Assembly (NCBI GenBank): GCA_030431255.1
Contig: JAUIJL010000003.1
Coordinates: 124,001-188,000 of the forward strand
Length of the DNA: 64,000 bases
Direction of reading: 5' to 3'
From: Thermoanaerobaculia bacterium
Lineage (GTDB): Bacteria > Acidobacteriota > Thermoanaerobaculia > Multivoradales > J023
Shown: piece after piece, positions 5,701 to 52,026 of the stretch
Position numbering within the stretch: position 1 is the stretch's first letter
Layout: every line of letters starts with the position of its first letter
Program-made: the position numbers and the translations under genes
Notes under the pieces: model-generated
Databases searched by the model: none
Seen by the model: the letters and a program-made list of their open reading frames with translations, nothing else
What the model was told of the DNA's origin: nothing

Positions 5701-8700
5701 AGGTGAGCACGATCCGGTCGCCGACCAGGATGTCGTGCAGCACCGCGAGATCGAGGGTCACGCTGCCTTCCACCGAATCCGCAGCCACCAATAGGCCTTC
5801 GCCCATGGCCGGCAGCGGGGTGAACGCGGAGGGTTGGCCGGAAGCGTTGCGCAGCAGCAGGCGTCCGCCGTCGACGGGTAAGCCGAAGTCGTCCAGCTGC
5901 TCCACGTAGACGGTGCCGGCGCCGGCGAAACGTCGCGGGCTGCTGGCCGCCGTGCCACCGCCTTGGGCGATCACAGAGGTGTCGAGCTCGAAGCCGTCGA
6001 GCACGTGAACCGACAGGCTGATGCGCCCGCCACCGCCGCCGCCGGCGGTGTTACGACTGGAGCCCGGTCCGCCGGATGCGTCGATCAGGCCGTCGCCGGA
6101 CAGAGTGCCGAAGACCAAGCGCAGGGCGCCGCCCGCGCCACCACCGCCGTTGCCACTGAGGCCGCGGGCGGTGATGTCGCCGGCCAGGTGGACCGTGGCG
6201 TTTTCGGCGAAGAGACGGATCACACCGCCGCCGGTGCCGCCGGCCACGGAGTTGTTGCCCGAGGTGCCACCACCGGTGCCGGGCAGGTGCGGATCCCGCA
6301 GGCTGCCGTAGGTATGGCCCGGATCCGTGGGGCTGCTACCGCCCCAGGAGCCGTTCCAACCGAGACCGCCGTGGCTGCCGCCGGCCCAGGCGCCCGGACC
6401 GGTCTGACCCGGGAGCAGGATCACTCGATCGTCCCCACGGCGACCGAGCAGACCCCGGCCGTTCATGTCGATGCTCGCGCCGTGACCGACACCCAGCACC
6501 CGCTGCACCTCGAGCTCGAGGTTGTGGTGGGTGATGGCGGAATCGTAGGTGTTGATCTCCGGCGCCGTCAGGCTGGAGGTCCGCACCACCAAGTTGTTGC
6601 TGCCGTCGAAGTCGCCACCGGCGTAGACGAAGAGGCCGGGCACCGAGCGCACCGTGCCGTCGTTCTGGGGCTGGAGCGACACCAAGGAGCCGTCGAGCAA
6701 GAAGACCGGACCGTTTTCGTCCCCTTCGCCCGGGATCAGCAGGTCGTTGTCGCGGCTGACCGTGGTCTGCACGCCCTCGAAGACCCGTCGCGCGGGCACG
6801 GCGAGCATTTGCACCACCTGTTGGGTGGCTTTGCCGCCGGTGTCCACGGCGCGCACGGCGAAGGGCAACACCGTGCCGCTGGGGATTTGGTTCGGCACCT
6901 GCCAGAGCAATTGGTAGACGCCCTCGCCGGGACCGCCGGTGCCGCTCACCAGCTCGCCGAGCTGCCAATCCGGGGCCAGCTCCACAGCGCCTGTGTCGGT
7001 GACGATGGGTCCGCGGAAGCGCACCTCGACGATGGTGCCGGGCACCTCGTTTTCGTTCTCGTCCAGGGCCAAGTCGCTGACGTGGGCACGCAGCAGCAAG
7101 TCGGTGCCGTCCTGGGGCAGCACGGAGCTGTAATCGGCGGGCCATTCGGCGTCTTGCCACGGGGTCAGCCAATTGGCCACCGGCGCCGTGGGATCGGGCT
7201 CGGGCGCCACGTCGAAGGCCAAGTCGCGGGTATTTTCGTTGTCACCTTGATCAAAGGCGCTGACCGTGGCGACGATCGGCGTGCGCTCGAAGAAGAGATC
7301 GGGCCTCACGTCGATGAACGCGGTGCGGTAGAGATCGCTGTTGACCCGGGTCGCGACCACCGGCGACGGGAAGATGTCGTCGCGGTCGAAGCGCACCTCC
7401 ACGCGGCTCGAATCGATGGCGGTTTCCAGGTCGCGGGCGCGGAACTGCACCCGGAAGCGCTCGCCGATGAAGAATTGCAGCTGGGTGGTGTTGTCGTCGC
7501 GTCGCAGCACCAGGCTGTCGATTTGCGGGCCGTTGGCGTCGTCGGCGACCACGAAGCGGTCCGATTCCACCTCGGCCGTGGCGCCGAAGGCGTCAATCAC
7601 CAGGGCACGTACGTAGAGGTTCTGACCCTCGGCCTCGTCGAGCGGGATGTCGAAGGTCAGCTCCGGCGGAGCCAGGTCCTGCCAGCCGCCGGCCGGTTTG
7701 TTGAGGGTCTGACCGGAGCGCACGTCGAGCACCTGGCCGGTGCCCTCGCGCCGCAGCTCGGCGGAGAGGGTCAGCTGGTTGGCGTCCACATCGTCGACAC
7801 CGAAGACCGTGGCCCGGATCCGCGAGCCGGCGTAGAACACCCCGGCCACCGGCGAGATTGCCTCCTGGCTCACGCTGTCCACCGTCGGCGGCGTATTGGG
7901 CAGCACCTGCATCTCCACCAACAAGATTTCCGACTCATTGGTGCTGGTGTCGATCACCTGGACCCAAATCGGGAACGGTCGCGGATCCACGCCGTTGCCC
8001 ACATAGGCGCCTACGAAGGAGTAAGTGAACGGGAAGGTGCGGGCGGAGAAGGACGGCTGGGTGGGATTGGCCAGGTCCTCGGGATCACTGACGTAAAAGT
8101 CCACCCGGTCCACGTCGCCGCCGGGATTCTCCGGCGTGACCTCGTCGAGACCGGAGATCTGCGGGATCAGGTTGTAGCGGATGCCGCCCACCAGATCGGC
8201 GGTGCCGCCGGACTCGGCGGGGAAGGGCACGGCGTCGAGCACCGGCGGATTCTCGTCGTAGATCCGGAAGGTGCCTTCCCACACGGGCATGGGATTGTCG
8301 TAAATGTCGAGCAGGCCGGAGATCACCAACCGCCGTTGCAGGGTATCGCCGTCGATGGAGAAGCCTTGGAGCGGCTCCACCTGCAAGCTGTAATTCTGTT
8401 GGGTTAAGAAGAGCACGACCGGCAGGGGCACCCAAACCCCGTCGCCGTTCAAGCCGAAGAGCTCGGCCGCGTCGCCCACGCCGTCACCGTCGAGTTGCTC
8501 GTCGGTGGCGGTCACCGCCTCGGTGAAGTCGACCCGGATCGACGCTGTCGGGTCCACCGGTCGATCAAAGGCCGGATCCGTGCGCAGCACGCCCGGACCC
8601 ACGGAGTCGGAGGTCTTGAAGTTGGTGCCCACATTGCCGAAGTCGGTCAGCAGACGGCCGCGGAGGTCGCGCACGCCGCCGGAGCCGCCGAGGATGGTGA

Positions 8701-11700
8701 GGCTGTAGGTGGTCAGGTTCTCGTAGTCCGCGGTGGGCACGAAACGCACGGCTTGGCGACCGTTTTCGATCGTCGAGGTCCATTGACCGGCCGGGATGTT
8801 GCCGTTGGCGGAGCGCAGACGGAAGTGGTGAGGATTGTTGCCCGACGCCAGGCGAGTGGGGTCGAGGGGCTCGGAGAAGATGATCTCCACCTGGGCGCGT
8901 CGGGACACGCCTTCGAAGCCGGCCGGCGGGGTGAGTGACAGGATGCGCGGCGGCGAGGCGTCGAGCACCAGGGGCGGAATGGAATTCAAGAAGCCGTCGG
9001 GACCGGTCAAGGAGCCGGCGCCGCTGGTGAATTGATCGCCGTTGTTGTCCTGGGCTTCCACCGTGTAATTACCCACTTGCAGGGCGTCGAAGCGATAGCG
9101 GCCGAAAGCGTCGGTCAAGCGCACCAGGGTGTCGCCGCTGGAATCCCGGAGCGACACGATGGCGCCTTCCATGGGTATCAGGAGCGACGGATCGCTGGTC
9201 GGCGCGTCGTCGGGCACGGGTTGGTAGACCACGCCTTGAGCCGATACAGCCGGCGCCAAGGTGATGCTCAAGAGCAGCACGTCGTCGTCGTAGACCAGGG
9301 TGCCGGAGGCGCGGCCGGCGGAGCCGGTGACCAGGCTGGTGGCGGTGGCGGTGATGTTGCCCACGGGCACGGCGAAATAGGTCACTTGACCGTCTTGGTT
9401 GGTGACGCCCGGGAAGCCGCTGAGGTTGACGTTGGCCTGGGGCACCAAGATGCCGTTGGCGTCGCGCACGGTGACCTGCACCACACCCTTGGGGCTGAGC
9501 TGAATTTGGTAGGGCGAGGCGACGGTGCCGTCGCCGGGCAGGGTGACCTCGCTCGCCTTGGAGAAGCTTTGACTCTTGGAGCGCTGCTCGCCGGTGACCT
9601 CCTGAGCTTGGGTGCCCAATGTCCGGTTCATCAGCACTTCTGGATAGAAATAAGTGCCGGTGCCGGGGTCCGGATCCAGGCGGGTGAAGTCGTAGGATCC
9701 CCCTTGGGTCAGGCGCAGGCTGAAGATGCCGGCGGTGGTGTCGATCTCCGACAGACCCGTCGACAGACTTTCATAAAGCTTGAAGTGCAGATCGCCGATG
9801 GGCTCGAGGATCATGTCGATCAGCGCTTCGGGATTGGTGTCGGTGATCGACGCCTCGGCCGCCGCTCGGCGGGGCGTGCCCTGGACGCCGGCCGCCAATT
9901 GGAAGGTGCCTTCGGGAATGCCCTCAAAGGAGAAGGTGCCCTCCACGCCGGGCGCGCCGCTGGTGGTGGCCAAGGCCACCACTCGGCCGCCGGCGGTATT
10001 GCCCGAGAGCCTCACCGTGCCCCCGGGCACGGGCATGATGCGCAGGGCGTCTTCCCATAGGGTGCCCGCGATGGTGCCCCGCTGGTCGAGGTAAACCGTG
10101 CCTTTGACCAATTGGCTGGGGGCGGTGATGCGCAAATTGCCCACCCGACCGCTTTGGCCGGTGGGCGCGTTGAAGGCGTAGACGGAATAAGTGCCCAGGG
10201 GCAGGCTCTCCCAGAGGGCGCGGCCGTCGGCGCCGGAGATGGTCCACTCGCCGGTGGACAGCTTCACTTGGGCGTCGGCCACGGGGCCACCGGTGACCGG
10301 ATCCCGCACCAGGACCTCCAAATCGCCCACGGACGTCTTCATGACGATGTCGGGCATTTGGCGCACCTGCCAATCGGCGGTGATCTGCGACGTGGCGCTG
10401 CCTTCCCGGCTGATTTGGTAGGGATCCCGAGCGTTGACCGTCACCCGGCCGGCGAAGATGTGGGAGACCTCGTAGCGACCGTCCACATCGGCGGTGAAGT
10501 AGGTATTCGGCGCCTCGGGCAGGCGACGGAACGGAAAGGAATTCTCGCGGACGTAATATTGAGCGAAGGAAAGGGGAGCCGTGGTGTTGTTGACGCTTTC
10601 CTTGATCTGGCCCTTCACCGATCCTTGGGCCTTCATCTGCACCAAGATGTCGATCTCTTGGCCGCTGGAGGTTAGATAGGCCTGGGTGCGGCCCACCCGC
10701 TGCACCGTGCCGACGAAGCCCGCGGCGGTGACCACCACCGAGCCCTTGGGCACCAGCTCGAAGAGGAACGAGCCGTCGGGCCCGGCAAATTGCTTCTGGG
10801 GCTCGAACGCGTTGGTGAGCAGGGTCACCTCCACGTTGGGCACGGGGGTGATGCCGTCGACCCCGACCACGGTGCCGCGTACCTTGCCGGCATCCTCGAA
10901 GACGATGTCGATATCGACGATATGGCCCGGGTATTCAATCTCGCCACTGATCTCGCGCACGCCGTGGAAGGGGTTGTAGGCCACCAGGTTGAAGGCACCC
11001 ACGGGCAGTGCGGTTTCGAAATCCCCCAAAGGATTGGTGGACGTCTCCGTGTACATACCCCGCAGCACGATGTTTTTGGCCGCGCTGCTGTAATAGGTCG
11101 GTCGGTAGAAGAGGGGGGTCAAGATGCCCGTGGCCGTGGCCGTGCGAGTCTTCACTCGAATGCCGCCGCCGCCCCGCATCTGCACGGTGACGAAGGGCGA
11201 GTGGCCGCCGTAAATGACCTTGGTGGGGCGCTTGCCGATCCAGCCCACTTTGCCGGGCTGCAGACCGTCGCCGGCGTGAATCACCACCTCGTAGTTGCCC
11301 AACGGCACATTCGCGAATTCGAAGCTGCCGTCGGGGCCGGAGGTGCCCTCGGCAAAGGGGTAGAGCACCACGCCGACCCCGGAAGCCGGTCGCCCCAAGG
11401 GGTCGAGGGCCACGCCGCGCACGCTGCCGCGCATGGACTCCAAGATCACCGGCTGGGCCTCGATGACCTCCGGGCTGACGTCGAGGATCGGCGGCAGGCT
11501 GACGTTGGCCTCTTGTTGGCGGTTGAAATCGATCACTTTCAGGCCGTAGCTCTCGTTCACGCCTTGGCTGGGCACGCCTTCGATGCGGTAGCGGCCGGTG
11601 GCGTCGGTGTAGGCAAAATTGCCCGGCCCCTCGATAAAGGCCACCGCCCCTTCGATGGGAATCAAGCTGTCGGTGATCGGATCCCGGAATTGCACCAGGC

Positions 11701-39746: not shown

Positions 39747-41558
39747 CTAGGATTCCGGCTCGACCAATTCTAGGGTCGAGCCGGAATCGGCGGGTCCGTG
39801 GGAGCTGACGATGCCCGAAGGCCAGTGGATCGTCAGGCTGTCCACCCGGGGAAAATCTCCGAGACCCACCAGGATCTCCGGCGGGCCTTGGGAGAGATAT
39901 CCGGAGGCGGCGCGCTGGAAGCGGGTCAAGGTCTTCTGGCCGACTTTGAGCTCTATCCGAGCGCCGAATCCTTGGGCATTGCTCGCCGAGCCTTTCAAAC
40001 GGATTTTGACCCACTTACCCCCGGTCTGCTGGTTGATCAACACCAGGGCCGGGCCGTTGTTTTGGGTCAGCACCAAGTCCGGATCGCCGTCGGCGTCCAA
40101 GTCGGCGGAGACCAGGCCTCGGCCGACCAGGGTTTCAGTGCCTTGCAGCGCGCCGGGGACCTCCAGGAATCGACCCCCCACATTCTCCAAGAGCTGCGCC
40201 GGCTGGCGGTAGGAGCGATCCGGGGAAAAGAGCTCGACATTGTCGAGAATATGACCGTTGACCACGGCGATATCCAAGTCGCCGTCGAGGTCGAAGTCGA
40301 GGAACGACGTGCCGAAGCCGACCCAGGGCAAGCTCGGAGCGGCGAGCCCTGAGGCGTCGGTGGCGTCGGTGTAGAGGCCATCGCCGAGAGGGCGGTAGAG
40401 GGTGTTGGTTTCTTGATCCAGATGGGTGAGATAAAGCTCTGGACGGCCGTCGCCGTCGAGGTCGCCGAATTCCACGCCCATGCCGGCTTCGGCGCCTCCG
40501 GAGCGATTGAAACCCACGCCGGAAAGCAACGCCGATTCCTCGAAGCGGCCCTTGCCGTCGCCAAGGTAAAGCTGGTTCATGGTCGAGTCGTTGGCCACGA
40601 AAACATCGGGGTGACCGTCGCTGTTGAAATCCGCGGCGAGGACCCCCAGGCCTTTGGCGTCCGGGGACGGTCGGATGCCGGCTTCCAAGCTCACCTCGCG
40701 GAATTTAGCCTGGCCGCCGTTGATGAAGAAGGCGTCGGGGCTCGCGGCGTAGACATCGGGATGGCAATAGGAACGCAGCTTCTTGGCCGCGTTGCCGCAG
40801 AATTTGTGGTTGTCTAGCCGGAAGTCCACGTAGGCGGCGACGAAGAGATCCAAATCACCGTCCGCATCGGCGTCGAAGAAGGTGCAGCCCGTGGACCAAG
40901 CTGTGCTGCCCTTACCCTTACCCAAGCCGATCTGGTCGGCGACCTCATCGAAGACCCCGTCGCCTCGGTTGCGAAAAAGGAGGTCTGCCCCGTATTGGCT
41001 GACGTAGAGGTCCAAGTCGCCGTCGCGGTCGATATCGCCGAAACAAGCACCCATGCCGATGCCCGGCCGATTCACCCCAGCGGCTCGGGAGTGATCTCGA
41101 AAGGTGCCGTCCGATTGTTGGAGGTAGAGACGATGGCCGGTGGAGGTCTCGGAGGCTGAATGCTTCTCGGAAACCGGCGCGCCCTGGACGAAGAAGATAT
41201 CGAGACGGTCGTCGCCGTTGACGTCGAGGACCGCTAGGCCCGGCCCCATGTTTTCGGGCATATATTTCTCGCCAGTGCCGAAGTGGCGGTGACGAAAATC
41301 GATGCCGAGATTTTCAGGGGCTTGAGCAAAAGCCGCCGGTTTCGATTGGGCCGGCTTCTCGGAGGACTTTCCTTTTTGTTGAGCGGCAGCGAAGCCCGTC
41401 GATGCCCACCAGAAAGCGGCCGCGAGCCATAGGAGGCGGCAACTAGCAAGCGTGTTTCGCCCGAACGACCTCTGAGCATTCGAGTCGAGATGTTTCGAGT
41501 CTTTTGGAAAGCTCCTCGCTTCAGCCTTCGCCACGGGCTGAAGCCCGAGGCTACACAT
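39747..41558 (-). CDS. FG-GAP/VCBS repeat protein with ASPIC/UnbV domain (CRTAC1-like)
   Basis: An exported protein of about 603 residues. After a hydrophobic segment (LLWLAAAFWWASTGFAAAQ) there are six or more FG-GAP-type beta-propeller blades with calcium-binding DxDxDGxxD loops (VLDVNGDDRLDIFFVQ, GDIDRDGDLDLYVSQYG, FFDADADGDLDLFVAAYVDF, ADLDADGDPDLVLTQNN). The C-terminus is an ASPIC/UnbV domain (FGARIELKVGQKTLTRFQ, SLTIHWPSG). The start is uncertain: the only in-frame ATGs near the signal peptide (41558, and 41705 or 41678 further up) lie inside a hairpin-rich repeat. It is the third gene of a minus-strand operon behind the TPR and phosphodiesterase genes, 168 bases from the TPR stop. Likely a periplasmic or outer-surface protein. 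Confidence 0.85.
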   Translation of the reverse strand: MCSLGLQPVAKAEARSFPKDSKHLDSNAQRSFGRNTLASCRLLWLAAAFWWASTGFAAAQQKGKSSEKPAQSKPAAFAQAPENLGIDFRHRHFGTGEKYMPENMGPGLAVLDVNGDDRLDIFFVQGAPVSEKHSASETSTGHRLYLQQSDGTFRDHSRAAGVNRPGIGMGACFGDIDRDGDLDLYVSQYGADLLFRNRGDGVFDEVADQIGLGKGKGSTAWSTGCTFFDADADGDLDLFVAAYVDFRLDNHKFCGNAAKKLRSYCHPDVYAASPDAFFINGGQAKFREVSLEAGIRPSPDAKGLGVLAADFNSDGHPDVFVANDSTMNQLYLGDGKGRFEESALLSGVGFNRSGGAEAGMGVEFGDLDGDGRPELYLTHLDQETNTLYRPLGDGLYTDATDASGLAAPSLPWVGFGTSFLDFDLDGDLDIAVVNGHILDNVELFSPDRSYRQPAQLLENVGGRFLEVPGALQGTETLVGRGLVSADLDADGDPDLVLTQNNGPALVLINQQTGGKWVKIRLKGSASNAQGFGARIELKVGQKTLTRFQRAASGYLSQGPPEILVGLGDFPRVDSLTIHWPSGIVSSHGPADSGSTLELVEPES

Positions 41559-41700
41559 GTCTTGCCCCTGACGGGGCTGCCCTGCATCTCTCCGGGCCGC
41601 GTAGGCCGGGCCGCCCCCGTGAGGGGGCAAGGGAAAGGTAGCCTCGGAATTTATTCCGTGGCGCGCGGAGCCGCGCATTCCAAATCCCAGAAAGGATCGT
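41526..41700. repeat. Hairpin-rich dispersed-type repeat at the 5' end of the FG-GAP gene
   Basis: The stretch contains CGGGCTGAAGCCCG (41534-41547), cccc-tgac-gggg (41565-41576), ggccgcgtaggccgggcc and gcgcgcggagccgcgc. Such mosaics of CGGGCTGAAGCCCG, GGGGCTG and GCGGAGCCGCGC recur as intergenic repeats in related high-GC genomes, from memory. Translated, it gives implausible sequence. Confidence 0.55.
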
Positions 41701-41725
41701 TTCAAGACAGGATTCAGCTAACCGT

Positions 41726-43282
41726 TTATCGACCACCCAACGCACGGTACACCTCCATCTGCCTTCGACTCTCTTCCTCCCGCCCCATGGCCGCCAGCAG
41801 GCGCCCGTAGGCCAAGCGTAGGCTCGGATCCGTGGGTTTGAGTGCCAGGGCGCGCTCGAACGCTCCGGCGGCGGCTTCGAGCTCACCGAGCTCCGCCAGC
41901 ACGGCGGCCAGCAAGGCCTGGGCATCGCCGTTTTCCGCATCGATGGCGACCGCAGCTTCCAAACGCGCTCGCGCTTCGTTCAGCTCCCCCATTTGGCTGA
42001 GGAATAGACCTTCGAGGTAGTGATTCTCAACCCGACCGGGCATCAGCTCCCTGGCGCGTCGGGCCGCCTCCAGGGCCCGGGGACGTTGGTCCATGGAATA
42101 GAGGACCTTGGCTTTTAGGGTCCAGACGCGATCGTCCTCCGGGGATGCCTCGATCAGCTCTTGAAGCAGCTCCAGGGCCGAGCCCAGCCGTCCTTGGGCC
42201 GCCAGCTCTTGGGCTTGGTTGAGGCTCGCTCCGGTCGATCGCTTGCCGTGGTCTCGCGCCTCGGACTGCCGGTTGAGGCGCTGAAACTCGGCGAGGGCTG
42301 CCTTGGCCCCTTCTAAGTCGCCACAGGCCCGAAGCCCGTTGCCGAGGCGAAAGTGGGCTTCGGCCGAATCGGGCAGGAGCTGCCGCGCGGCGCGCAGGTG
42401 CTCGATGCCCTTGGAATCGCAGCCGTTTTCCGCCAGCTCCAGAAGCAGGGTTCCGAGCTCGAGGTGGGCTTTGCCCGCTTCGGGAACGTCTTTCTCGATG
42501 GCCGCCTCCAGGAGCTCGACCGCCGAGGCTCGGGTCTCGGGGTCGGCGGCCAAGGCCAGGCCGAGGGCGAGCTGAATCGAGGCGTTCTCGGGGTGCTGCT
42601 CCAAGCCTCTGCGGGCCACGGATTGAGCCGAGGCCGCGTTGCCCAGGGCCAGCTCCAGGAGGGCGAGCTGGTGAAAAATCGACGCCGAGGCCAAGCCCCG
42701 ATCGAGGGCGGACCTGAGCAGATCCGCAGCCTCTTCGACCCGTTGGACATCGCGCAAGACCAGGGCCGCGAGCACATAGGATTCGACGTCGTCGGGTCGA
42801 AGCGCTCGCAGGGCGGCCAAGCTCTCCAGGGCCTCCGCGGGGGCGCCGACTCGAATTTGCAGCCTTGCGACTTGGCGCACGGTCTCGGGTTGATCCGGTG
42901 CCAGGGATTGGGCTCGGCGGGCTGAGGTCAATGCCTCCAGATGGTTGCCCCGACGCCTCTGTGCTTCCGAAAGACCGAGCCAGGGCATGGCTGAGTCGGC
43001 GTCCAGCTCACGGGCCTGCTCGAAGAGCCGCGACGCTTTTTCGAGCTCGTTCAGCTCCAGGGCTCGACTTGCCTCGCTGAGTAACCCGGCCATGGTGGCC
43101 GCGGTGTCGTCCGTCGGCGTGGCCGGTTCATCCAAGGAATCCTCGTCCCAGGAATCCTCGCTCAGGGACGCGGTCGGCACCTTTGCGACCGCGGGGGCGA
43201 TCCACGGGCCTACGAGCCAGAACAGCAAGCCCGACAGCAAAGCAGCCCGCGGCATGATCCATTGATGTGATTGAGCCCTCAT
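41726..43282 (-). CDS. Exported TPR-repeat protein
   Basis: A 518-residue protein with a signal segment (AALLSGLLFWLVGPWIAPAVA) and a disordered acidic linker (SEDSWDEDSLDEPATPTDDT). About twelve TPR-like helix pairs fill residues 65-510 (ASRLFEQARELDADSAMPWL, ALTSARRAQSLAPDQPETVR, AAGAFERALALKPTDPSLRL). Its ATG overlaps the upstream TGA (bases 43279-43282), so it is translated with the phosphodiesterase-like gene and presumably acts with it outside the cytoplasm, as a scaffold. No catalytic motif is seen. Confidence 0.85.
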   Translation of the reverse strand: MRAQSHQWIMPRAALLSGLLFWLVGPWIAPAVAKVPTASLSEDSWDEDSLDEPATPTDDTAATMAGLLSEASRALELNELEKASRLFEQARELDADSAMPWLGLSEAQRRRGNHLEALTSARRAQSLAPDQPETVRQVARLQIRVGAPAEALESLAALRALRPDDVESYVLAALVLRDVQRVEEAADLLRSALDRGLASASIFHQLALLELALGNAASAQSVARRGLEQHPENASIQLALGLALAADPETRASAVELLEAAIEKDVPEAGKAHLELGTLLLELAENGCDSKGIEHLRAARQLLPDSAEAHFRLGNGLRACGDLEGAKAALAEFQRLNRQSEARDHGKRSTGASLNQAQELAAQGRLGSALELLQELIEASPEDDRVWTLKAKVLYSMDQRPRALEAARRARELMPGRVENHYLEGLFLSQMGELNEARARLEAAVAIDAENGDAQALLAAVLAELGELEAAAGAFERALALKPTDPSLRLAYGRLLAAMGREEESRRQMEVYRALGGR

Positions 43283-45390
43283 CGGTCAGCCGTGGAGGTG
43301 TTGGAGCCGGGAATGCCGGTTTTTCGCAGCCCGATTTTTTGCGGTCCGATTTCTTGCGGCCCGATTTTTCGCAGAGTCTCGAAAACGACCCGACCGCAGG
43401 CCTGTGCGGGAGGGCGAATGCCCAGCAGGGCGGAGAGGGTCGGTGCGACATCGATTTGTGACATCGCCGGCACGGTGACCTGCTCAGCGACCCCGGGTCC
43501 GGCGATGAAAAAGATGGCGTGCATGTCTCGATTCTCCGGCCAATTGCCATGGGTGCCGCCTCCCCAAGGGCGCCCTGAAGGTCCGGCGACCGCTTCGGGA
43601 AAGCCGCTGATGGGGTAGTAGCCGGGCGCGGGGTCGAGGTAGAGGTCACCGCCGAAACGGTCGAGCTGGAGGTGAGAGACCTCCTCGGACAAATGAATGC
43701 GTCGGATCACGGAGCGACCGGTTTCCGGGTCTTTGGCGCTGAGCAGGGCCGTCGCCGCCTGCGCCAACACCTCCGCACGCTGATCGTCGGCGACGATACC
43801 TTCGCGCCACTGCAGCTCGTTGAGGCGTAAGAAGAACGACGATTCCGATGCCAAGATTTTGGTACGGCTCAAGTCGATACGGCCGTCGGTATCGCGGGTC
43901 AGAAGACCTTCTTGCTCGAGGATCCGATTGATCGCCACATCGCGGGTGGAGTAGGTCATGCCATGGTCCGAGACCAAGGCCAAGATAGTGTCGTCACCGG
44001 CCATCTCGACAAGCTCTCCGAGCCAACGGTCCAGCTGGGCCGCAATCTTGGAATAAACACCCCAGATGGCTTCGCCCAATTCAGGATCATGGATCTCGCT
44101 ATCGGGATGCAGCACGGCCATCCACTGATGGCCCGCATGGTCGAGATACGGGGCGTAGTGAAAAAGCGCCTCCGGCCGCCACTCGGTCCATGCGAAGCGG
44201 GAATTGGCGATCAGGTGATCGACGTCGAAGGTCACGGTTTCCAATAGGCGCGCTTCCGCCGAGCCGTCACCACCGAGCATCATCGGCCGCCCGAGGCGTC
44301 CGAAGCGATATGCGTGAAAAGCGTCGTCGTAGGAAGCCGCTCCCGAGGCCATGTAGGCGGCTCGATCTCGCTCGGAGATGGAGCCGACGGCCGTGTTGAC
44401 CTCGCGCCGATAGAGAATCATCTCGGAGCCGTCGGGAGCGAGCTGAAAAAGTCGAAAGTAGAGCAGCCCTCCGTTTGACCCGTCGCGGATCGGAAACCCT
44501 CGGCTCCAGCCCCTGGGCTGGTCGGCGGCCGCATGGGGTTTGAGCAGGGCTTCGAAGCCGGCTTCGCGGGTGCGGGAGTTGAGTCGCAAGAGCACGGAAT
44601 CGTATCCCTGGGTGGGGTCGTCAGGGTGGTCGAAGACCCAGCCATAAACCGCGTCGTCACCGACTTGCAGCTCCAGCTCCAGGGGTTGGCCGATCCACGG
44701 GGGGACGTCGGTCCACGGCTCGGAGACCGGATTCAAATCCTCCTCCCCTAGGGCTCCCGACGGCAAGATTTGCTGCTCGAAGCTGCTCAGGGAACGAAAT
44801 CTACTTTCGGCTTTCCGGCTCTCGAGCGCCGCTGCGATTGGTGAATGGGGGAAGTAGTGAGTGGCACCCAACACGGTGGTGTCGAGCCCTTCGAGCGCGG
44901 TGGTCACGAAGAGTGGCTCCGCTTGCAAGGCGAGGGCGGAGAAGCCACGGAATGCATCCCGGACCGAATGTTGATGTCGATCCTTTGAGTAGACGGTCAT
45001 GTTGCCGCTCACTCCGTGGGTTCCGGGTCCGCAGCCGGTGTAAATCGACGCGTGGGACGGCGCCGTCTTGGATGGCCAAGTGCCGATCATATGCTCGGCT
45101 CTCACGCCCCGCTCGGCGAGGGCCTTAAGGTGGGGCATCTTGCCTTCGGCCAGGAGGCGATCGATCAACACATCGCCGGCGCCGTCCCAAGAGATCAGCA
45201 TCAGCCTGGGAGACCTGGACGGGGACGGCCCGGAAGGTGACCCGGAAGATGAATCAGTGGCGGTGTCGGAGAGCAGGGCCTCCGGAGCTCCATCCGGGGG
45301 GGATCCCCAAGTGTTCGGGACGACGACGAAAGCGAGGGAAATCAAAGTCAGGATACAAGTGAAGAGAGAGTCGCGAGAGTGACAAATCAT
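43279..45390 (-). CDS. Exported type I phosphodiesterase/alkaline phosphatase-superfamily protein
   Basis: A 703-residue protein with signal segment FTCILTLISLAFVVVPNTWG. It matches type I phosphodiesterase/nucleotide pyrophosphatase: LMLISWDGAGDVLIDRLLAE (first metal Asp), WPSKTAPSHASIYTGCGPGT (nucleophile Thr or Ser region; THGVSGN), APYLDHAGHQW (metal Asp and His), ALVSDHGMTYSTRDVAINRI (Asp-His pair) and GTHGNWPENRDMHAIFF (last His). Phosphate or sulfate ester hydrolysis is expected; the substrate is unknown. I chose ATG 45390 because GGAG is six bases ahead; a TTG at 45411 is less likely. The C-terminal tail carries five-residue repeats (IGPQE, IGPQK, IGLRK) from 15-base tandem DNA repeats. 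First gene of a three-gene operon. Confidence 0.85.
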   Translation of the reverse strand: MICHSRDSLFTCILTLISLAFVVVPNTWGSPPDGAPEALLSDTATDSSSGSPSGPSPSRSPRLMLISWDGAGDVLIDRLLAEGKMPHLKALAERGVRAEHMIGTWPSKTAPSHASIYTGCGPGTHGVSGNMTVYSKDRHQHSVRDAFRGFSALALQAEPLFVTTALEGLDTTVLGATHYFPHSPIAAALESRKAESRFRSLSSFEQQILPSGALGEEDLNPVSEPWTDVPPWIGQPLELELQVGDDAVYGWVFDHPDDPTQGYDSVLLRLNSRTREAGFEALLKPHAAADQPRGWSRGFPIRDGSNGGLLYFRLFQLAPDGSEMILYRREVNTAVGSISERDRAAYMASGAASYDDAFHAYRFGRLGRPMMLGGDGSAEARLLETVTFDVDHLIANSRFAWTEWRPEALFHYAPYLDHAGHQWMAVLHPDSEIHDPELGEAIWGVYSKIAAQLDRWLGELVEMAGDDTILALVSDHGMTYSTRDVAINRILEQEGLLTRDTDGRIDLSRTKILASESSFFLRLNELQWREGIVADDQRAEVLAQAATALLSAKDPETGRSVIRRIHLSEEVSHLQLDRFGGDLYLDPAPGYYPISGFPEAVAGPSGRPWGGGTHGNWPENRDMHAIFFIAGPGVAEQVTVPAMSQIDVAPTLSALLGIRPPAQACGRVVFETLRKIGPQEIGPQKIGLRKTGIPGSNTSTADR
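43325..43374 (-). repeat. In-frame 15-base tandem repeats at the 3' end of the phosphodiesterase gene
   Basis: About three and a half units of the gcggcccgattttt type (minus-strand reading encodes RKIGPQEIGPQKIGLRK). Units differ by one or two bases. This is a likely slippage site changing only the protein's tail length. Confidence 0.75.
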
Positions 45391-45559
45391 AGAATCTCCG
45401 AGTGACAGCAAGCGGATGGCCGGAGGCGGATTCTATCGCTAACAGCGCAAAGGTCCGCAGATTCGCTCCAGTCCGCTAAGCTAGCGTTGCTCGCGCGGCT
45501 CATTCCGGAGCTCGTGGGCTGAAGGGGCGCATCGGGGAAGGCCCGTTGGAGAAAGCGGA

Positions 45560-46162
45560 ATGGCAAAATCAATCGTGGTAGAGAGAGGCGGGGTAGAGTC
45601 CTCGTTCGCGTTTAGGAAGATAGACCGTTCGAAGCTATATGGCCGCCGACGCCGCATCCATTTGGATCCCGCGGGGCGGACGTGTGCTCGGGCGTCGTTG
45701 ACCGACGACGGCTCGTTGATCCTACGCCAGGGCATGACCGCCCAAGGCTATTTCGATGAGACCGGTCGATGGGTTTCCCAAAAAGACCTGGTGGGGCTGG
45801 ATGCCCAGGGGCAGCCCCTCGAGCCGCAGCCGTCGACCCTCGGCCAAGCCGTGCCGTTGGAAGGGCCGATTCCCGCTCGGGATTTCCTCTCCGTTCGGGT
45901 CTACTCGGTGTACGCCCTCGAGCCCGAGCAGGTGGACGACGAGCTGGCGAGCGGCTTGCGCAACGGCGAAATCTACCGATTGCCGTTCAACTATCGTCCG
46001 GGTTGGGACGAAGGCTCCGCGTGGTTGGTGGCGTCCATGGAAGGCGACCTCTTCGCTCTGGTCGGCCGCCAGGTCGAGCACGACTGGTGCGCCCCCCATC
46101 AGCTGCCGCAAATAGACGACGAAGACGAATTCGAGGACGACCTCGACTTCGAGATGTTCTGA
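45560..46162 (+). CDS. Unrecognised protein, first gene of ligase-like operon
   Basis: A 200-residue soluble protein with no signal peptide or membrane helix. Visible features are FAFRKIDRSKLYGRRRRIHL (very basic), then ARASLTDDGSLILRQGMTAQ, GYFDETGRWVSQKDLVGLDA, and a C-terminal acidic tail (QIDDEDEFEDDLDFEMF). HDWCAPHQLP contains a Cys-His cluster that could bind metal. I do not recognise a family. GGAG lies seven bases before ATG 45560. The next gene starts eight bases after its stop and the third overlaps, so the three are one transcript. The basic start and acidic end may suit nucleic-acid or protein docking, which is speculation. Confidence 0.65.
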   Translation: MAKSIVVERGGVESSFAFRKIDRSKLYGRRRRIHLDPAGRTCARASLTDDGSLILRQGMTAQGYFDETGRWVSQKDLVGLDAQGQPLEPQPSTLGQAVPLEGPIPARDFLSVRVYSVYALEPEQVDDELASGLRNGEIYRLPFNYRPGWDEGSAWLVASMEGDLFALVGRQVEHDWCAPHQLPQIDDEDEFEDDLDFEMF

Positions 46163-46169
46163 GGAAAGC

Positions 46170-46922
46170 ATGCGCAAAGTCCATCTCACCAACGCCGCCG
46201 GCCGGGACGCCACGGTCGATTTCGTCGGCGCCAAGCCGCCTTCACCGCCCCGTCTCGGTCTGCCGGACCACGATGTGCGTTTTCAACGATATTTGGCCAC
46301 CACCGAGGCCGGGCTGCACGACGAGCTCAGCCGTCGGTTCGCGTCCGAGGACTACGGCCAAGAGCTGATCCAGGGCGATCCGGAAATCGACCTGGAGCAA
46401 GTGGGTCGCGCCATCCGAGAAACCTCCCAGGTCTACCTCTCCGCCGACGGCGAGGTCTTGCACGCGCCGCCCGAGGTGGTCGAGCTGATCGTCGGGCCCG
46501 ACGGCGAGGAGAAGGAGCGACGGGTGCCGGTGGACGTGCCGGCCAACGTCAACGAGGAGCTGCCGATTCGCTGGGGAGACCGGCGGTTTCCACGCACCGA
46601 GCTGCCCCGACGTTTCGTCATTCAACGCACCGTGCAGATCCGCCACTACGACGGTTTGACCTACGACTACCTCTTCGGCATGGCCAAGGAGTTGGATGAA
46701 GCGGACGAGGTGGTGCTGATCGGCGGCGGCGCCAAGGGCAGAAAGCCGTTGATCTTCCAAACCAACGGCACTCCCTATCGAGGATTTCTCGAAGGACGCA
46801 CGGACGGTGATCGCTATCAATTGCTTTTGCACCTTTCGAATATGGAGCTGCGCTTGCCGGGTCGCGGTGAAAAAGCCGACGAAGAAAACAGTGAAGAGAA
46901 CACAGCGAGCACCGACTCATGA
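46170..46922 (+). CDS. Unrecognised protein, second gene of ligase-like operon
   Basis: A 250-residue soluble protein of unknown family, starting eight bases after the previous gene with GAGGAAA upstream of ATG 46170. It has an N-terminal segment RKVHLTNAAGRDATVDFVGA, a helical charged middle (LATTEAGLHDELSRRFASED, QVGRAIRETSQVYLS) and a conserved-looking C-terminal part: TVQIRHYDGLTYDYLFGMAK, EADEVVLIGGGAKGRKPLIF and TNGTPYRGFLEGRTDGDRYQ. The glycine-rich VLIGGGAKGRKP could be a loop for a nucleotide or phosphate, but no standard Walker or Rossmann motif fits. Its stop overlaps the ligase-like ATG (46919-46922). Confidence 0.65.
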   Translation: MRKVHLTNAAGRDATVDFVGAKPPSPPRLGLPDHDVRFQRYLATTEAGLHDELSRRFASEDYGQELIQGDPEIDLEQVGRAIRETSQVYLSADGEVLHAPPEVVELIVGPDGEEKERRVPVDVPANVNEELPIRWGDRRFPRTELPRRFVIQRTVQIRHYDGLTYDYLFGMAKELDEADEVVLIGGGAKGRKPLIFQTNGTPYRGFLEGRTDGDRYQLLLHLSNMELRLPGRGEKADEENSEENTASTDS

Positions 46923-48397
46923 GCTTTTACACCACGGTTCAGGCCGGTCCTTTGGGAGCCGGCAGTCTTTCTCCCGCCGGCAGCGTGACGGATCCCGAGC
47001 TGTCGTCGCGGGTGGCCGGCTACAAGCGGCAAATCGCCGGACGCTATCGGGCGATCTCCCCCGACGAGGTGCATTTTCTACCCAAATCCAACATGTTGGT
47101 TTCGCCGAAAATCGACGGTCAATTCTGGTGTTTGGTGATCGACGAAGGCGACGTCGTCCTGGTGTCGCCGAAAGGCAAGGTCATTTCCGGGTCGATTCCT
47201 CTGTTGGACGAAGCCCGCAAAAAAGTGTTGCCCCGTGCCCACGGCAGGTTGATCGTGCCTGGAGAGCTCTTCGCACTGCGCAAGGGCGGACGACCCCGGG
47301 TCGGTGACGTGGGCAAAGCCTTGGGTGGCGGTGAGCAGGCGGAGGTCGCTCGGCTGGGCTTCTTCGCCTTCGACCTTATGGCAGGCGGGGATTCTGAGAC
47401 TCCCGAGCCGCCGGCCGACTATCCGGGCCGTCTGGAGGTGATCCGCAGGCTCTTCGAAGGCGGTCAGCGGATCCAGGCCATCCGGACCGAGTCCGTGCAC
47501 GGTCCCGAAGAGGTGCAGCGGCTCTTCGGAGAGTGGGTGGAAGGGGGCAAGGGCGAAGGCTTGGTGATCCGGCCCGAAGACGGACGCATCTTCAAGCTCA
47601 AGCCGATCTTCACCCTCGACGCCGCCGTCATCGGTTTCACGGAGAAATCCGAGGAGCCGGATCACGTGCGATCCCTGCTCTTGGCCCTGATCCGCGAAAA
47701 CGGTCAATTCCAGCTCATCGGCTCCGTGGGCAACCTGGGCACCGACTCCCTGCGCGCCGAGCTGTACCAGCGCTTGAGCACCGCGACCGTGGAGTCGTCC
47801 TATCGTTTTGCCAGCTCCACCGGCGCCCTTTATCGATTCGTCAAGCCGGAGATCGTGGTCGAGGTCAAAGTGACCGACCTGCAAGTCGAGGACACCTCGG
47901 GCCGCTTGATCCGCAGGATGGTCCTGGAGCTCGACGAGGCGGGTTGGACGCCGATCCAGCTCAAGTCCGGGGCCAGCCTGATCCATCCGATCATGACCCG
48001 GGTACGGGACGACAAAAACGTCGACGGCACCGATGTCCGCGCCGCGCAAATCCTAGAGCGGTGTGAGATCGAGGAGCTGGATCAAGCGGTCCAGCGGATC
48101 CGTCATCCGAAAAGCGAGATTCTGCGGCGGGAGGTCTACGCCAAAACCACCAAAGACAAAACCGCCGTGCGCAAGCTGGTGATCTGGCGCACGAATAAGG
48201 ATGAGATCGACCCGCTCTTTCCGCCGTACGTGGTCCATTGGACCGACTTCAGCCCAGGACGCAAAGCGCCGATCCAGCGCGAGGTGCGCCTCGCCCCCGA
48301 CGAAGCCACGGCCCTTGAGCTGGGGGACGAGATGGTGGCGTCCGGGGTGAAGAAGGGCTGGGAAAAGGTGGAGCCGGAGGTCGACGTACCCTCCTGA
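46919..48397 (+). CDS. ATP-dependent DNA/RNA ligase-like nucleotidyltransferase
   Basis: A 492-residue protein with the covalent nucleotidyltransferase motifs in order: motif I KIDG at residues 64-67 (lysine for adenylation) in LVSPKIDGQFW, a glutamate in VPGELFAL (about 116), motif IIIa FFAFDLM (149-154), motif IV EGLVIRPEDG (213-222) and motif V FKLKPIF (225-231). A following region (LIGSVGNLGTDSLRAELYQR, LYRFVKPEIVVEVKV) looks like the ligase OB-fold. About 150 further C-terminal residues (QAVQRIRHPKSEILRREVYA and onward) are unassigned. It is shorter at the N-terminus than replicative ATP ligases and lacks a DNA-binding helical domain there. It is third in a tight operon with two unknown proteins. 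Nick or end joining of nucleic acid is likely; polymerase or Ku partners are not present. Confidence 0.8.
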   Translation: MSFYTTVQAGPLGAGSLSPAGSVTDPELSSRVAGYKRQIAGRYRAISPDEVHFLPKSNMLVSPKIDGQFWCLVIDEGDVVLVSPKGKVISGSIPLLDEARKKVLPRAHGRLIVPGELFALRKGGRPRVGDVGKALGGGEQAEVARLGFFAFDLMAGGDSETPEPPADYPGRLEVIRRLFEGGQRIQAIRTESVHGPEEVQRLFGEWVEGGKGEGLVIRPEDGRIFKLKPIFTLDAAVIGFTEKSEEPDHVRSLLLALIRENGQFQLIGSVGNLGTDSLRAELYQRLSTATVESSYRFASSTGALYRFVKPEIVVEVKVTDLQVEDTSGRLIRRMVLELDEAGWTPIQLKSGASLIHPIMTRVRDDKNVDGTDVRAAQILERCEIEELDQAVQRIRHPKSEILRREVYAKTTKDKTAVRKLVIWRTNKDEIDPLFPPYVVHWTDFSPGRKAPIQREVRLAPDEATALELGDEMVASGVKKGWEKVEPEVDVPS

Positions 48398-48555: not shown

Positions 48556-51500
48556 CTAGCTCGGAAAAATTTCCGTGTCCGCGCCGCCGCAAAGCTGGCC
48601 TTCTGGATTGTCGTAGATCGCCTCCTGGCCGGTGGTGGTGTCGAGGACCCGGAGGGTATATTCCACGTCGGTCAAGGCGCCGTAGTAGAACCAGAATTGG
48701 CCGTTGATCGCCCCGCCGTCGAGCATCTTGACCACCAGCTCGGTGTTCTCCGAGTCGAAAAACCAGAAGAAACCCGTTTCGTCGGTGCCGGCGCTCGCAA
48801 AACCCGGGCCGGCGCCGTCCTCGCTGATCCAATCCACGGTGATCTGGAATCGATCCAACAAGCAGAGCTTTTGGCCGTCGGTCACGCAGCCGGAAATGTC
48901 GTCGGTTTTGGCAGCTTCGGCAGCGCGTGCGACATCTGAGCCGGGTGAAGGAACCGGTTCCCAGAGCATCGACGGAGACAGGCCGCCGATCGATCCCACC
49001 GGGAAGGCCGACACGTCGGCATCGCCGCAGAAGCGGCCCGGCGGGTTGTGCCACGAGCGGGTAGCGCCGGTGGCCAAGTCCTGGACATCGATCCAATATT
49101 CCACGTCGGAAAGCGCGCCGTAGAAGAACCAAAACGCCGAGTTGATCGAAGTGCCGTCGAGCACCTTGACCACCAATTCGTAGTTGTCGGCGTCGAAGAA
49201 CCAAAACAGGCCGCTCTCGTCCGTTTGGGTGATCGCCTTGGCGGTGCCGGTTTCGCCCGATGCCGGTACCCGCCAGCGGGCGGTCACCTCGAATCGGCCG
49301 TCCTGCAAGCACAAGGTCTCGTTATCGTCGGCGCAGAGCTCGAAGGATGAAATGGGCCATGCCCACAGCTCCCGGCCGCTCGAGCCGTCGTCGGCGGTGA
49401 AGACTAGGAATTCCGTGCCCGCGGAGCTGGTGACGGTCGTGAAGTCGCGGGGGGACGACGGCTCGGAGCCCGGCGCCAAATCCGTCAACCGGATGGGGGT
49501 GGCGTCGATGGCGGGGCGGTATCGCCAAGCCTCTCGCCCGTGAGCGCCGTCGTCGGCACTGAAGTAGAGCCCGTCGTCCACGGCGGTCAAAGCCTCGGGG
49601 AAGCTGCCCAAAGGACCGCTGCGTAGGTCGACTCTGCGCAGGCGAAGCGTCTCCTCGGCCGCGGGGTCGTAAGTCCACAGCTCGGCGCCGAAGTCGGCGT
49701 CGGCGGCGACGAAGAAGAGTCGACCCGCGGCTTCCACCAATTGGTTGCTCGGCGCCACACCCGTGGGTAGCTCCAGGCGTTGCAGGTCCGTGCCGTCGCT
49801 GGAGCCGAGCGCGAAACCCTCGTCCGTCAGCTCCAGCCAGTAGGCCCGTCCGTCCAGTGACGCGGTCGCGTAGGCCTCGATCGTCGCTCCTAGCCGGGTC
49901 GGCTCTTGTCCGAGCGACCACGACCACCAGGCCGGTCCGTCACCGGAATCGGCTTTGAAAATCAGGTGCTCTGGGGTCGACACTAGGAATTCAGGATCGG
50001 ATCCGCTGGAGCCAGGATCAAGATCGGCGATCAAGAAGGTGCCCTGGGTGGTGCCGTCGCTGAACCAAGGCTCAGGCCCGCTGGCGTCTTGGAGAGCGAC
50101 GAAGGCCAGACCCTGGGAGCCCACTACAGTCAGGTCGCGGGGGTAGATCGGTCCGGGAGGAACCGGCGGCGAGCACACCCCGCAGCCCACGTGCACGTTG
50201 ATCCACTCGGGATCGATGTCGATCAACAGCTGAGGATCGCTCGGATCCGTCGCGATCCAAATCTTCTGCCCGTTGCCTTGATCGCCGAAGAAGACCAGCT
50301 TGCCCTGAAAGGCCCGGGGCTCCCGTGACCAGGAGATGGGGGAGCCGTTGAAGAGCAGGGGAGACGTGCCGGCTACCGTGCCGTCGGTGATCGAGGTCTC
50401 GCGAGCGGCGATGAAATCGCCGTAGCCACCAAATAGGGCCCGGGGACCGGCATCGAGATCGACGGCTTCAAAGCTTTCTGGATCGACCCGCGGCGCGAGG
50501 GATTGGGACGTTCCCGTGCCGTCCGCGCCGAGCGAGATCCGTCGGAGCTCTTCGGCGCTGAACGCGTCCGGGTCTCGGGCGGTGTAGATCAACGTCGAGC
50601 CCAGAGGCAGCAAGTTCTCCGGCAAGGCGGTCCCCGGTCGCTCGGTGGAGCCCAACAAGATTTCCGGACCTTCGGAATCGATGGTCCACAAATCCTGTCC
50701 GGAACGATCTGCGTTGGTATAGGCGTTGACCACGGCCCGGTCGCCCAGCTGAATTGGAATCCCGGAGTAGACCGCTGCGCCGGCTCCGACCAAGTTGCCC
50801 ACAAGGGTCGTGCCCGCGGCCGTGCCGTCGGTTCGGTAGACGGCGAGGTCGGATTGCGAGTAATTATTCACCGCCACGGCGTACGGACCCACGGATCCGG
50901 AGGCCAGAAGCCCATCGACCTGAACCAAGGGCGCTGACAGACCGCCGGCGTCCAATCGGTAGAGACCCGAGGTAAAACCCTTGGTCTCGACATTCACCAA
51001 CACGGTGCCGTCGTCCAAGCCCAAAACTCGCTGCACGATCCGGCTGCCCAAAGGCAGAGTCGCGACCGGGCCGGTGCCTTGGGGCGTCAAATCCGTGGAC
51101 CACAGCTCACCGTTGGTTTGGAAATAGAAGCGATCGCCGGCCGGGTACAGGAATGAAATCAGGTTGTCGCATCCACCATTGGCGCACAGCTCGCCGAGCT
51201 TCAGCGGCTCCGAGCCCGGGCTCATCAAGTAGATCGGCTCGGTGACACCGTCGGAAACGCTGAAGAGAATGGAGCCGTCGACAGCCACGGGATTGTTGGA
51301 AATCGCCGGACAGGCGCCGGGGCAGAGATCCGTCAGGGGCTCGGTGCCTTCGGGGGTTCCGTCGCTCTGCCACCACTCAATGCCCAGCGAGTCGGAAAAG
51401 GCTTGGAAAGCGACCTTATCGCCGAGGGGAAGAAAGTGCCGAGGGTGCGAGCTGAGGTTGATGACGCTCAAATTGCCCAATGTGACGGTGCCCTGGGCCG

Positions 51501-52026
51501 TTCCGTCGGACACCCAGGGCTCACGGCCTTCGACCGGAGTCTCAATACTGAACCAGGCACGACCTCCCACCAGGGTCAGCTCCTCGATCTCCGAGCTGCA
51601 AGGGCCAGGGCATAGGTCAGCTACCAGTCGAGTGCCGCCCTCCGTGCCGTCCGAGGTCCAAAGCTCCACCCCATGAACCCCATCGTCGGCGGCGAAAAAA
51701 GCCCGGGTGCCGTCGAAAGCCAGCGCGCCGAATTGCGCCGGCAGCTCCGGATCCAGGACGCAATCCCCGGGGCAAACCTCCGCCCACAACCGAGTGCCCT
51801 CAACGGAGCCGTCGGTGATCCAAAGCTCCAGGCCCCGTCGTCCGTCATCGCCCCGAAACAAGACCGAATCCCCACCTTGCGCCAAGGCGAAGCTGCGGAA
51901 GATCGTGCGCTGGGCCGGTGCCTCGATGAGATCCTCCACCAGCGTCGGTGGGCCCTGGGCGAATGCCGATGTGCTGAGAGTGATCGCGAGGGTCAGGAAG
52001 ATCCGGAGCTGAGAGTTTAGGGGCAT
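48556..52026 (-). CDS. Exported ELWxxDGT-repeat protein with duplicated C-terminal domain
   Basis: A 1,156-residue secreted protein (MPLNSQLRIFLTLAITLSTS, cleavage near AFAQG). Most of it is ELWxxDGTxxGT-type repeats (LELWITDGSVEGTRL, VELWTSDGTEGGTRLV, EPWVSDGTAQGTVTL, AELWTYDPAAEETLRL), each with an FAADDGxHGxE-like turn, suggesting a beta-propeller. The end carries two copies of a roughly 105-residue domain: CLQDGRFEVTARW, GLFWFFDADNYELVVKVLDG, FWFFYGALSDVEYWIDVQD; then CLLDRFQITVDW, GFFWFFDSENTELVVKMLDG, FWFYYGALTDVEYTLRVLD. Function unknown; a surface protein is probable. The preceding region (RC of 52027-52045) has no strong ribosome site, so the start rests on the signal peptide. Confidence 0.9.
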   Translation of the reverse strand: MPLNSQLRIFLTLAITLSTSAFAQGPPTLVEDLIEAPAQRTIFRSFALAQGGDSVLFRGDDGRRGLELWITDGSVEGTRLWAEVCPGDCVLDPELPAQFGALAFDGTRAFFAADDGVHGVELWTSDGTEGGTRLVADLCPGPCSSEIEELTLVGGRAWFSIETPVEGREPWVSDGTAQGTVTLGNLSVINLSSHPRHFLPLGDKVAFQAFSDSLGIEWWQSDGTPEGTEPLTDLCPGACPAISNNPVAVDGSILFSVSDGVTEPIYLMSPGSEPLKLGELCANGGCDNLISFLYPAGDRFYFQTNGELWSTDLTPQGTGPVATLPLGSRIVQRVLGLDDGTVLVNVETKGFTSGLYRLDAGGLSAPLVQVDGLLASGSVGPYAVAVNNYSQSDLAVYRTDGTAAGTTLVGNLVGAGAAVYSGIPIQLGDRAVVNAYTNADRSGQDLWTIDSEGPEILLGSTERPGTALPENLLPLGSTLIYTARDPDAFSAEELRRISLGADGTGTSQSLAPRVDPESFEAVDLDAGPRALFGGYGDFIAARETSITDGTVAGTSPLLFNGSPISWSREPRAFQGKLVFFGDQGNGQKIWIATDPSDPQLLIDIDPEWINVHVGCGVCSPPVPPGPIYPRDLTVVGSQGLAFVALQDASGPEPWFSDGTTQGTFLIADLDPGSSGSDPEFLVSTPEHLIFKADSGDGPAWWSWSLGQEPTRLGATIEAYATASLDGRAYWLELTDEGFALGSSDGTDLQRLELPTGVAPSNQLVEAAGRLFFVAADADFGAELWTYDPAAEETLRLRRVDLRSGPLGSFPEALTAVDDGLYFSADDGAHGREAWRYRPAIDATPIRLTDLAPGSEPSSPRDFTTVTSSAGTEFLVFTADDGSSGRELWAWPISSFELCADDNETLCLQDGRFEVTARWRVPASGETGTAKAITQTDESGLFWFFDADNYELVVKVLDGTSINSAFWFFYGALSDVEYWIDVQDLATGATRSWHNPPGRFCGDADVSAFPVGSIGGLSPSMLWEPVPSPGSDVARAAEAAKTDDISGCVTDGQKLCLLDRFQITVDWISEDGAGPGFASAGTDETGFFWFFDSENTELVVKMLDGGAINGQFWFYYGALTDVEYTLRVLDTTTGQEAIYDNPEGQLCGGADTEIFPS

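Follow-up and report, generated by a model that had tools for sequence, protein, structure and literature searches.

In bacteria, non-homologous end joining (NHEJ) is presented as the joint work of Ku and LigD (PMC12784961, PMC5124664), with Ku acting as a homodimer (PMC12784961). LigD combines a phosphoesterase with a ligase and a polymerase (PMC5124664), and the phosphoesterase has 3'-phosphatase activity (PMC8656161). The accessible parts of two surveys make no mention of a two-subunit bacterial Ku (PMC11936186, PMC7719229). Here, we describe a three-gene operon at positions 45560-48397 of the window, a 64,000-nucleotide stretch (G000:C45:124001-188000) of the 10.2-Mb genome (G000) of a Thermoanaerobaculia bacterium. 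The operon encodes two small proteins, called here P1 and P2, and an ATP-dependent DNA ligase; in the titles and abstract openings of the open-access papers listed by a literature search, it is undescribed. We propose, with a probability of roughly 0.55, that it is a divergent bacterial end-joining system composed of two putative Ku-like subunits and a dedicated ligase, joined in one family by a LigD-like polymerase and phosphatase.

The three genes are consecutive on the plus strand in the open reading frame (ORF) calls. They are as tightly packed as a first-pass annotation, made from the sequence alone, had claimed: the sizes it gave (200, 250, and 492 amino acids) and the ATGA overlap at the P2/ligase junction (46919-46922) hold, and only the first gap needs correction, from 8 bases to 7 (46163-46169). 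Because the large upstream ORF (43279-45411) is on the opposite strand and the downstream ORF (48556-52026) points toward the operon, the three genes look like a unit of their own.

This unit has been conserved. When genome contigs were scanned with the ligase, one relative came up, in Bacteroides sp. 519 (L002), which has the same gene order (6541-7143, 7205-7915, and 7905-9344) and shares 29% identity with the window in P1, 38% in P2, and 33% in the ligase. Since the same three proteins are kept in the same order at such identities, the module is far beyond chance. A P2 profile matched 11 of the 396 genomes sampled from the window's phylum, one of them the window genome itself, and a single genome out of 395 in the Bacteroides phylum, namely Bacteroides sp. 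519; we take the two phyla to be different. In the 12 loci first examined (the window, L002, and L017-L026), P1, P2, and the ligase were all found, both in the window and in the 11 of 11 loci that were fetched, so that the survey of co-occurrence that the first-pass annotation had called for supports a conserved unit. The genes are co-directional in 11 of these loci, the exception being L018 (genome G288), where P1 lies some 1.8 kb off and in the opposite orientation; in 10 of the 12 loci, the P2 and ligase genes share 4-14 bases. The pairwise identities of the three proteins are correlated across the 12 loci (r 0.96-0.97, uncorrected for phylogeny), which is consistent with co-inheritance and also with shared phylogeny.

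In the class to which genome G095 belongs, P2 was found in 25 of 162 genomes. Within 1.5 kb of the 27 P2 pieces (two genomes have two each), the ligase was present in 24 cases and P1 in 21; by our own reading, two of the three ligase misses and four of the six P1 misses fall at contig ends. P1 is on the opposite strand in L080 (G843), as in L018. In G895, P1 and P2 are on one contig and the ligase and a polymerase gene described below on another, and a search of two stretches of G842, 7.8 and 3.9 kb long, did not find P1.

Judged by domain and profile matches, the third protein has the core of an ATP-dependent DNA ligase, with a nucleotidyltransferase domain, an OB domain, and motif VI. The ligase-like enzyme of the first-pass annotation is thus confirmed by Pfam and by profile, as are all the motifs it had quoted (KIDG at residues 64-67, FFAFDLM at 148-154, EGLVIRPEDG at 213-222, and FKLKP at 225-229) and its probable OB-fold, now matched by PF04679; it had missed motif VI (R361, R363, D365, K366) and a C-terminal domain of about 110 residues. 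K64, D66, G67, E116, E213, G214, K226, K228, R363, D365, and K366 are invariant in all 12 ligases, and R361 is present in nine. A profile built from the 12 sequences matched, over its positions 51-373, PDB entries for DNA ligases of the archaeal/LigI type (best E 2.6e-20), and all 31 listed matches are DNA ligases, whereas the window sequence alone gave no convincing match in the PDB. The enzyme scores 54.7 bits against the NHEJ ligase equivalog TIGR02779, whose cut-off is 227.75; together with the lack of a match to the Ku model PF02735, this agrees with the earlier statement that the operon is not the known NHEJ operon. In the window genome, the module's ligase is the only match to PF01068 (E<=0.001); a further ligase match is present in G095, G208, G391, G387, and G432.

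P1 is basic at its start and acidic in its tail, and P2 carries a VLIGGGAKGRKP loop, both as first reported. The two proteins also remain unrecognised at the family level, since neither matched Pfam (E<=1), NCBIfam, PHROG, or PADLOC families. Among the Pfam matches at E<=10 of four P1 and three P2 relatives, Ku (PF02735) was absent, which places them outside the Ku sequence family; no vWA or SAP match was found in P1 or P2 with Pfam, and P1 and P2 profiles found no convincing match among PDB sequences.

Structural models tentatively point to a Ku fold. P1 and P2 were modelled separately with AlphaFold, from two alignment rows each, and both low-confidence models place Ku first. For P1, a Foldseek search of the PDB ranked Ku of M. 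tuberculosis first (E 0.17) and Ku of B. subtilis second (E 0.29), and a search of the viral-protein library ranked Ku of Mycobacterium phage Dylan first (E 0.075). For P2, Ku occupied ranks 1, 2, and 4 of the PDB search. In VIA-align, rows 1-7 for P1 are Ku or Ku-containing entries (Z 5.6-4.6), the chain of the large complexes among them being taken as Ku80 from its range. For P2, rows 1-33 are likewise Ku or Ku-containing (Z 4.7-3.4, over residues about 125-232), many of them Ku70/80 entries, and the first non-Ku row has a Z of 3.3. Further down the P1 rows, after Sld7, appear among others INTS13/14, SPOC, and MED25 ACID domains, which have the Ku barrel in common. The Ku reading is favoured because Ku comes first for both partners, which are distinct proteins encoded in the same operon next to a DNA ligase. 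The claim of the first-pass annotation that no Ku is present is therefore probably wrong, though no ranking reaches significance; the structure prediction and remote homology searches that it had recommended on the partners put Ku at the top, yet they yielded no significant match and profile comparison lent no support.

The last 110-112 residues or so of the ligase, after the OB domain, form a tail that is tentatively WGR-like. WGR is a DNA-break-binding domain of PARPs. With hhalign, the tail was compared with six WGR sequences, namely L115 and five plasmid proteins, two of these near-identical. The local score of 23.3 was reached by none of 100 shuffles (mean 10.1, maximum 14.8) at an hhalign probability of 20%, and the global score of 17.3 by none of 100 at a probability of 5%; this was a single chosen test, made after the likeness had been spotted by eye. 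The Pfam WGR model (PF05406) matched 0 of 12 ligase members at E<=10, the tail matched no PDB sequence, and its few Pfam matches, each confined to one member and none better than E 0.019, are to non-WGR families and look like chance. On the minus strand of L115 (2269-5193, G387:C20), a 975-amino-acid frame contains ligase, OB, WGR, and PARP regulatory and catalytic domains; its WGR stretch matched no PDB chain at E<=0.001. G387 also has the module. The fusion resembles the module's enzyme in having ligase and WGR in one protein, and differs from it in its PF14743 OB domain, its PARP domains, and its location on another contig than the module.

In six of the 12 loci, all of family f36, a protein of about 386-429 amino acids adjoins the ligase and consists of an AEP part fused to a HAD phosphatase. 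The AEP part matches PF22548 over the cut-off in all three of the proteins tested, and in five of the six by genome search. In the PDB it matches 7nqd/7nqf (E 1.7e-6), which we take to be a CRISPR-associated prim-pol; a weak NCBIfam match is also to the CRISPR-associated prim-pol type, and TOTE/CRISPR-associated primases are its nearest relatives. The AEP motifs DxD and SNGxGGxH retain their residues in six of six. The HAD part matches PDB entry 1xpj, and that of L021 matches the polynucleotide-kinase family phrog_415 (E 2.5e-7), phrog_1238 higher, and TIGR01689 as well. Across the 162 genomes of the G095 class, AEP-HAD is present in 24 (E<1e-36), P2 in 25, and both in 23, that is, in 23 of 25 P2 genomes against 1 of 137 others (Fisher p 1.4e-24, phylogeny uncorrected); by our own count, the two are on the same contig in 19 of the 23. 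Three further matches in this class span the HAD part only. The exceptions are G887, with AEP and without P2, and G882 and G896, with P2 and without AEP, all three being 75-89% complete and fragmented. For the wider family, the earlier statement that the set lacks a polymerase or primase is thus probably wrong; the window genome has the three-gene form. Since LigD joins a phosphoesterase with 3'-phosphatase activity, a ligase, and a polymerase, the f36 module would supply similar activities as separate proteins. In Bacteroides sp. 519, a strong match to AEP-TOTE (PF22548, E 4.4e-98) occurs in L028 (G432:C75:83748-84452); it was rejected as a part of the module, being a separate 983-amino-acid frame on another contig.

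The distribution of canonical Ku was also considered. Ku (PF02735) was found in none of the 12 module genomes, compared with 18 of 38 others tested (p 0.002) and 16 of 26 others in the window's order. Of 148 genomes in the Bacteroides phylum, Ku was found in 19, and Bacteroides sp. 519 is not one of them. A megablast of a stretch from one Ku locus against plasmids returned no match, and no weight was placed on it.

Several observations weigh against an end-joining system with Ku-like subunits. The models are of low confidence (pLDDT 47.9 for P1 and 35.0 for P2), and the search tool itself cautions that matches from low-confidence models are meaningless. No Foldseek match of P1 or P2 reaches E<=0.001; the query-normalised TM-scores of the Ku rows are 0.13-0.30 for the PDB and 0.10 for the viral library, with rmsd of 16-22 and probabilities of 0.03-0.41 and 0.04, respectively, and the non-Ku row at rank 3 for P2 has a higher probability (0.75). 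In VIA-align, Sld7 (row 8 for P1) ties with Ku rows at Z 4.6, and a Z below 8 can mean a mere common arrangement. P1 and P2 profiles were also compared by hhalign with sets of 20 and later 39 Ku proteins, the controls being shuffled, circularly shifted, and reversed. The P1 score was matched or beaten by 10 of 100 shuffles with 20 Ku and by 5 of 60 with 39, and the P2 score by 47 of 100 and 20 of 60; for the central part of P1 alone the count was 47 of 60, and for the C-terminal part of P2 it was 6 of 60. The first P1 alignment, with 20 Ku, was long and colinear (102 columns), but with 39 Ku the top local alignment shrank to 8 tail residues. In global mode, the P2 score was matched or beaten by 29 of 40 shuffles; no shuffle out of 40 reached the P1 score, but 7 of the 13 controls made by shifting or reversing Ku did, and since the aligned stretch was not sensible either, the P1 score was discounted. 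As these comparisons gave no significant support, a sequence-level proof of Ku for P1 and P2 was rejected. The P1-P2 profile comparison is itself weak (E 0.12). The genome counts call for similar caution: the exclusion of Ku is uncorrected for phylogeny and comes from an unbalanced sample, six of the 12 module genomes being of one family; 20 of the 38 module-free genomes lack Ku too; and the test covered 12 module genomes and left out 19 further ones of the G095 class. A genome search found neither PF22548 nor AEP-HAD in the window genome. Finally, in G288 and G403 the module ligase itself goes unmatched by PF01068, so another diverged ligase could escape notice.

An alternative that we regard as unlikely, and yet serious, is a ligase-centred complex for the repair of gaps or single-strand breaks, in which P1 and P2 would be scaffold or clamp-like proteins of a new kind, with no relation to Ku. 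The model for it is mycobacterial LigC with the AEP PrimC (compare PMC8068969), in which a small ATP-dependent ligase likewise works with an AEP; the module differs in its two conserved extra partners, in its WGR-like tail, and in an AEP-HAD fusion that is restricted to one family. A DNA ligase and an AEP do occur together in that family, a WGR-like domain would suit the binding of a nick as well as of a break, and the PDB entries that Foldseek lists for P1 include the T4 sliding clamp, at ranks 9 and 13, and at rank 8 an archaeal ligase-PCNA entry. In addition, sequence profiles do not back Ku, which comes from low-confidence models. However, three Foldseek searches, run with models made separately for the two proteins, place Ku at rank 1, and Ku also tops the VIA-align rows.

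It had also been suggested that the operon is a defence or stress module. An anti-phage or stress system that happens to use a ligase is improbable, although the distribution of the module is patchy and its AEP is nearest to TOTE/CRISPR-associated primases. A gene for a Panacea (SocA-like) antitoxin-domain protein lies immediately beside P1 in L018 (7910-8710), and a similar gene lies near the module at L021:6101-6940; the first of these would fit a defence role. Against it, none of the three window proteins had a PADLOC family at E<=1, which leaves the suggestion unsupported, the neighbours having been read by eye and not scanned for defence families. A phage or plasmid origin likewise gained no support: P2 was not found in the viral contigs, plasmids, or phages searched. 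Ligase relatives were not found in viral contigs, and in plasmids (E<=1e-5) they were limited to two Bradyrhizobium LigD; phages were not searched with the ligase, nor viral contigs, plasmids, or phages with P1. Least probable is RNA repair or sealing, another of the early suggestions: the RNA_ligase match (PF09414) that might favour it is below the cut-off (19.9 against 27 bits for the window ligase, 25.4 in one relative), whereas the DNA-ligase domains of the window protein exceed theirs, its OB domain has motif VI, the listed PDB matches are DNA ligases without exception, and in one family its linked gene encodes an AEP.

Compared with the Ku homodimer and LigD, the proposed end-joining system is similar in having a dedicated ATP-dependent DNA ligase with invariant motifs, an AEP polymerase and a phosphatase in one module family, and partners whose low-confidence models put Ku first. 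It differs in that two small, sequence-unrelated partners replace the single Ku. In addition, its ligase is far under the LigD ligase cut-off and has a WGR-like tail, its phosphatase (f36 only) is of the HAD type and not a phosphoesterase domain, and its polymerase is separate or absent. With eukaryotic Ku70/Ku80 and their separate ligase, the module would have in common a ligase that stands alone and a pair of non-identical Ku-like subunits, but P1 and P2 have 200-250 amino acids and no vWA or SAP match, and their heterodimer is a putative one. Among bacteria, Ku heterodimers have been reported in Sinorhizobium. In its strongest form, to which we give slightly less than an even chance, the proposal is that of an independent bacterial end-joining pathway with a heterodimeric Ku, made of two tiny, extremely diverged subunits and a WGR-tailed ligase, with a polymerase-phosphatase in one lineage. 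Such a pathway would escape the Ku and LigD models tried, would probably have spread between phyla, and would be used where canonical Ku is lacking.

In the mechanism that we envisage, P1 and P2, as very diverged Ku-like proteins, would assemble on double-strand DNA ends as a hetero-oligomeric ring. The ring, or the conserved acidic C-terminal tail of P1, would recruit the ligase, perhaps also via its WGR-like domain, which by similarity may hold the break. The motifs of the ligase suggest that it would self-adenylate on K64 and seal the break. Where present, AEP-HAD may fill gaps and remove 3' phosphates or otherwise clean 3' ends. The features of the locus are collected in Table 1.

Table 1. 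Features of the three-gene operon, in window coordinates.
Feature	Position	Strand	Evidence
Possible ribosome-binding site GGAGAAAG before P1	45548..45555	+	Read off the sequence; inferred
P1, 200 aa, proposed first Ku-like subunit	45560..46162	+	ORF; no family match; low-confidence model puts Ku first
P1 residues 90-175, stretch aligned to Ku in VIA-align	45827..46084	+	Low-confidence model
P1 acidic C-terminal tail, ending D/S-F-x-hydrophobic-hydrophobic	46130..46159	+	Extreme C-terminus in 12/12
P2, 250 aa, proposed second Ku-like subunit	46170..46922	+	ORF; no family match; low-confidence model puts Ku first
P2 residues 125-232, Ku-aligned stretch (104-174 of Mtb Ku; about 356-435 in Ku80 numbering)	46542..46865	+	VIA-align, low-confidence model
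ATP-dependent DNA ligase, 492 aa	46919..48397	+	Pfam PF01068 and PF04679 over cut-off; 12-row profile
Nucleotidyltransferase domain, residues 55-222	47081..47584	+	PF01068
Ligase motif I KIDG, expected catalytic lysine K64	47108..47119	+	K, D, G in 12/12
OB domain, residues 249-366, with motif VI RxRxDK	47663..48016	+	PF04679; motif VI conservation
Ligase C-terminal domain, divergent WGR-like (tentative)	48059..48394	+	hhalign to 6 WGR sequences

As for the surroundings, read by eye, the minus-strand frame adjoining the operon (48556-52026) encodes a large protein with recurring 'ELW..DGT' units, in which no connection with the operon was seen. Upstream of the operon, a repeat protein on the minus strand (39747-41705), presumably of the FG-GAP/ASPIC-like type to judge from the appearance of its sequence, sits among minus-strand genes that include a TPR-like and an alkaline-phosphatase-like protein.

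More generally, this module would be overlooked in any census that takes PF02735 as its model of Ku and TIGR02779 as its model of the LigD ligase. If the end-joining proposal is true, it changes the counts of bacteria that are able to rejoin breaks. The module would then also constitute a bacterial parallel to Ku70/Ku80, and it would offer small proteins with which to test how a Ku ring recruits its ligase.

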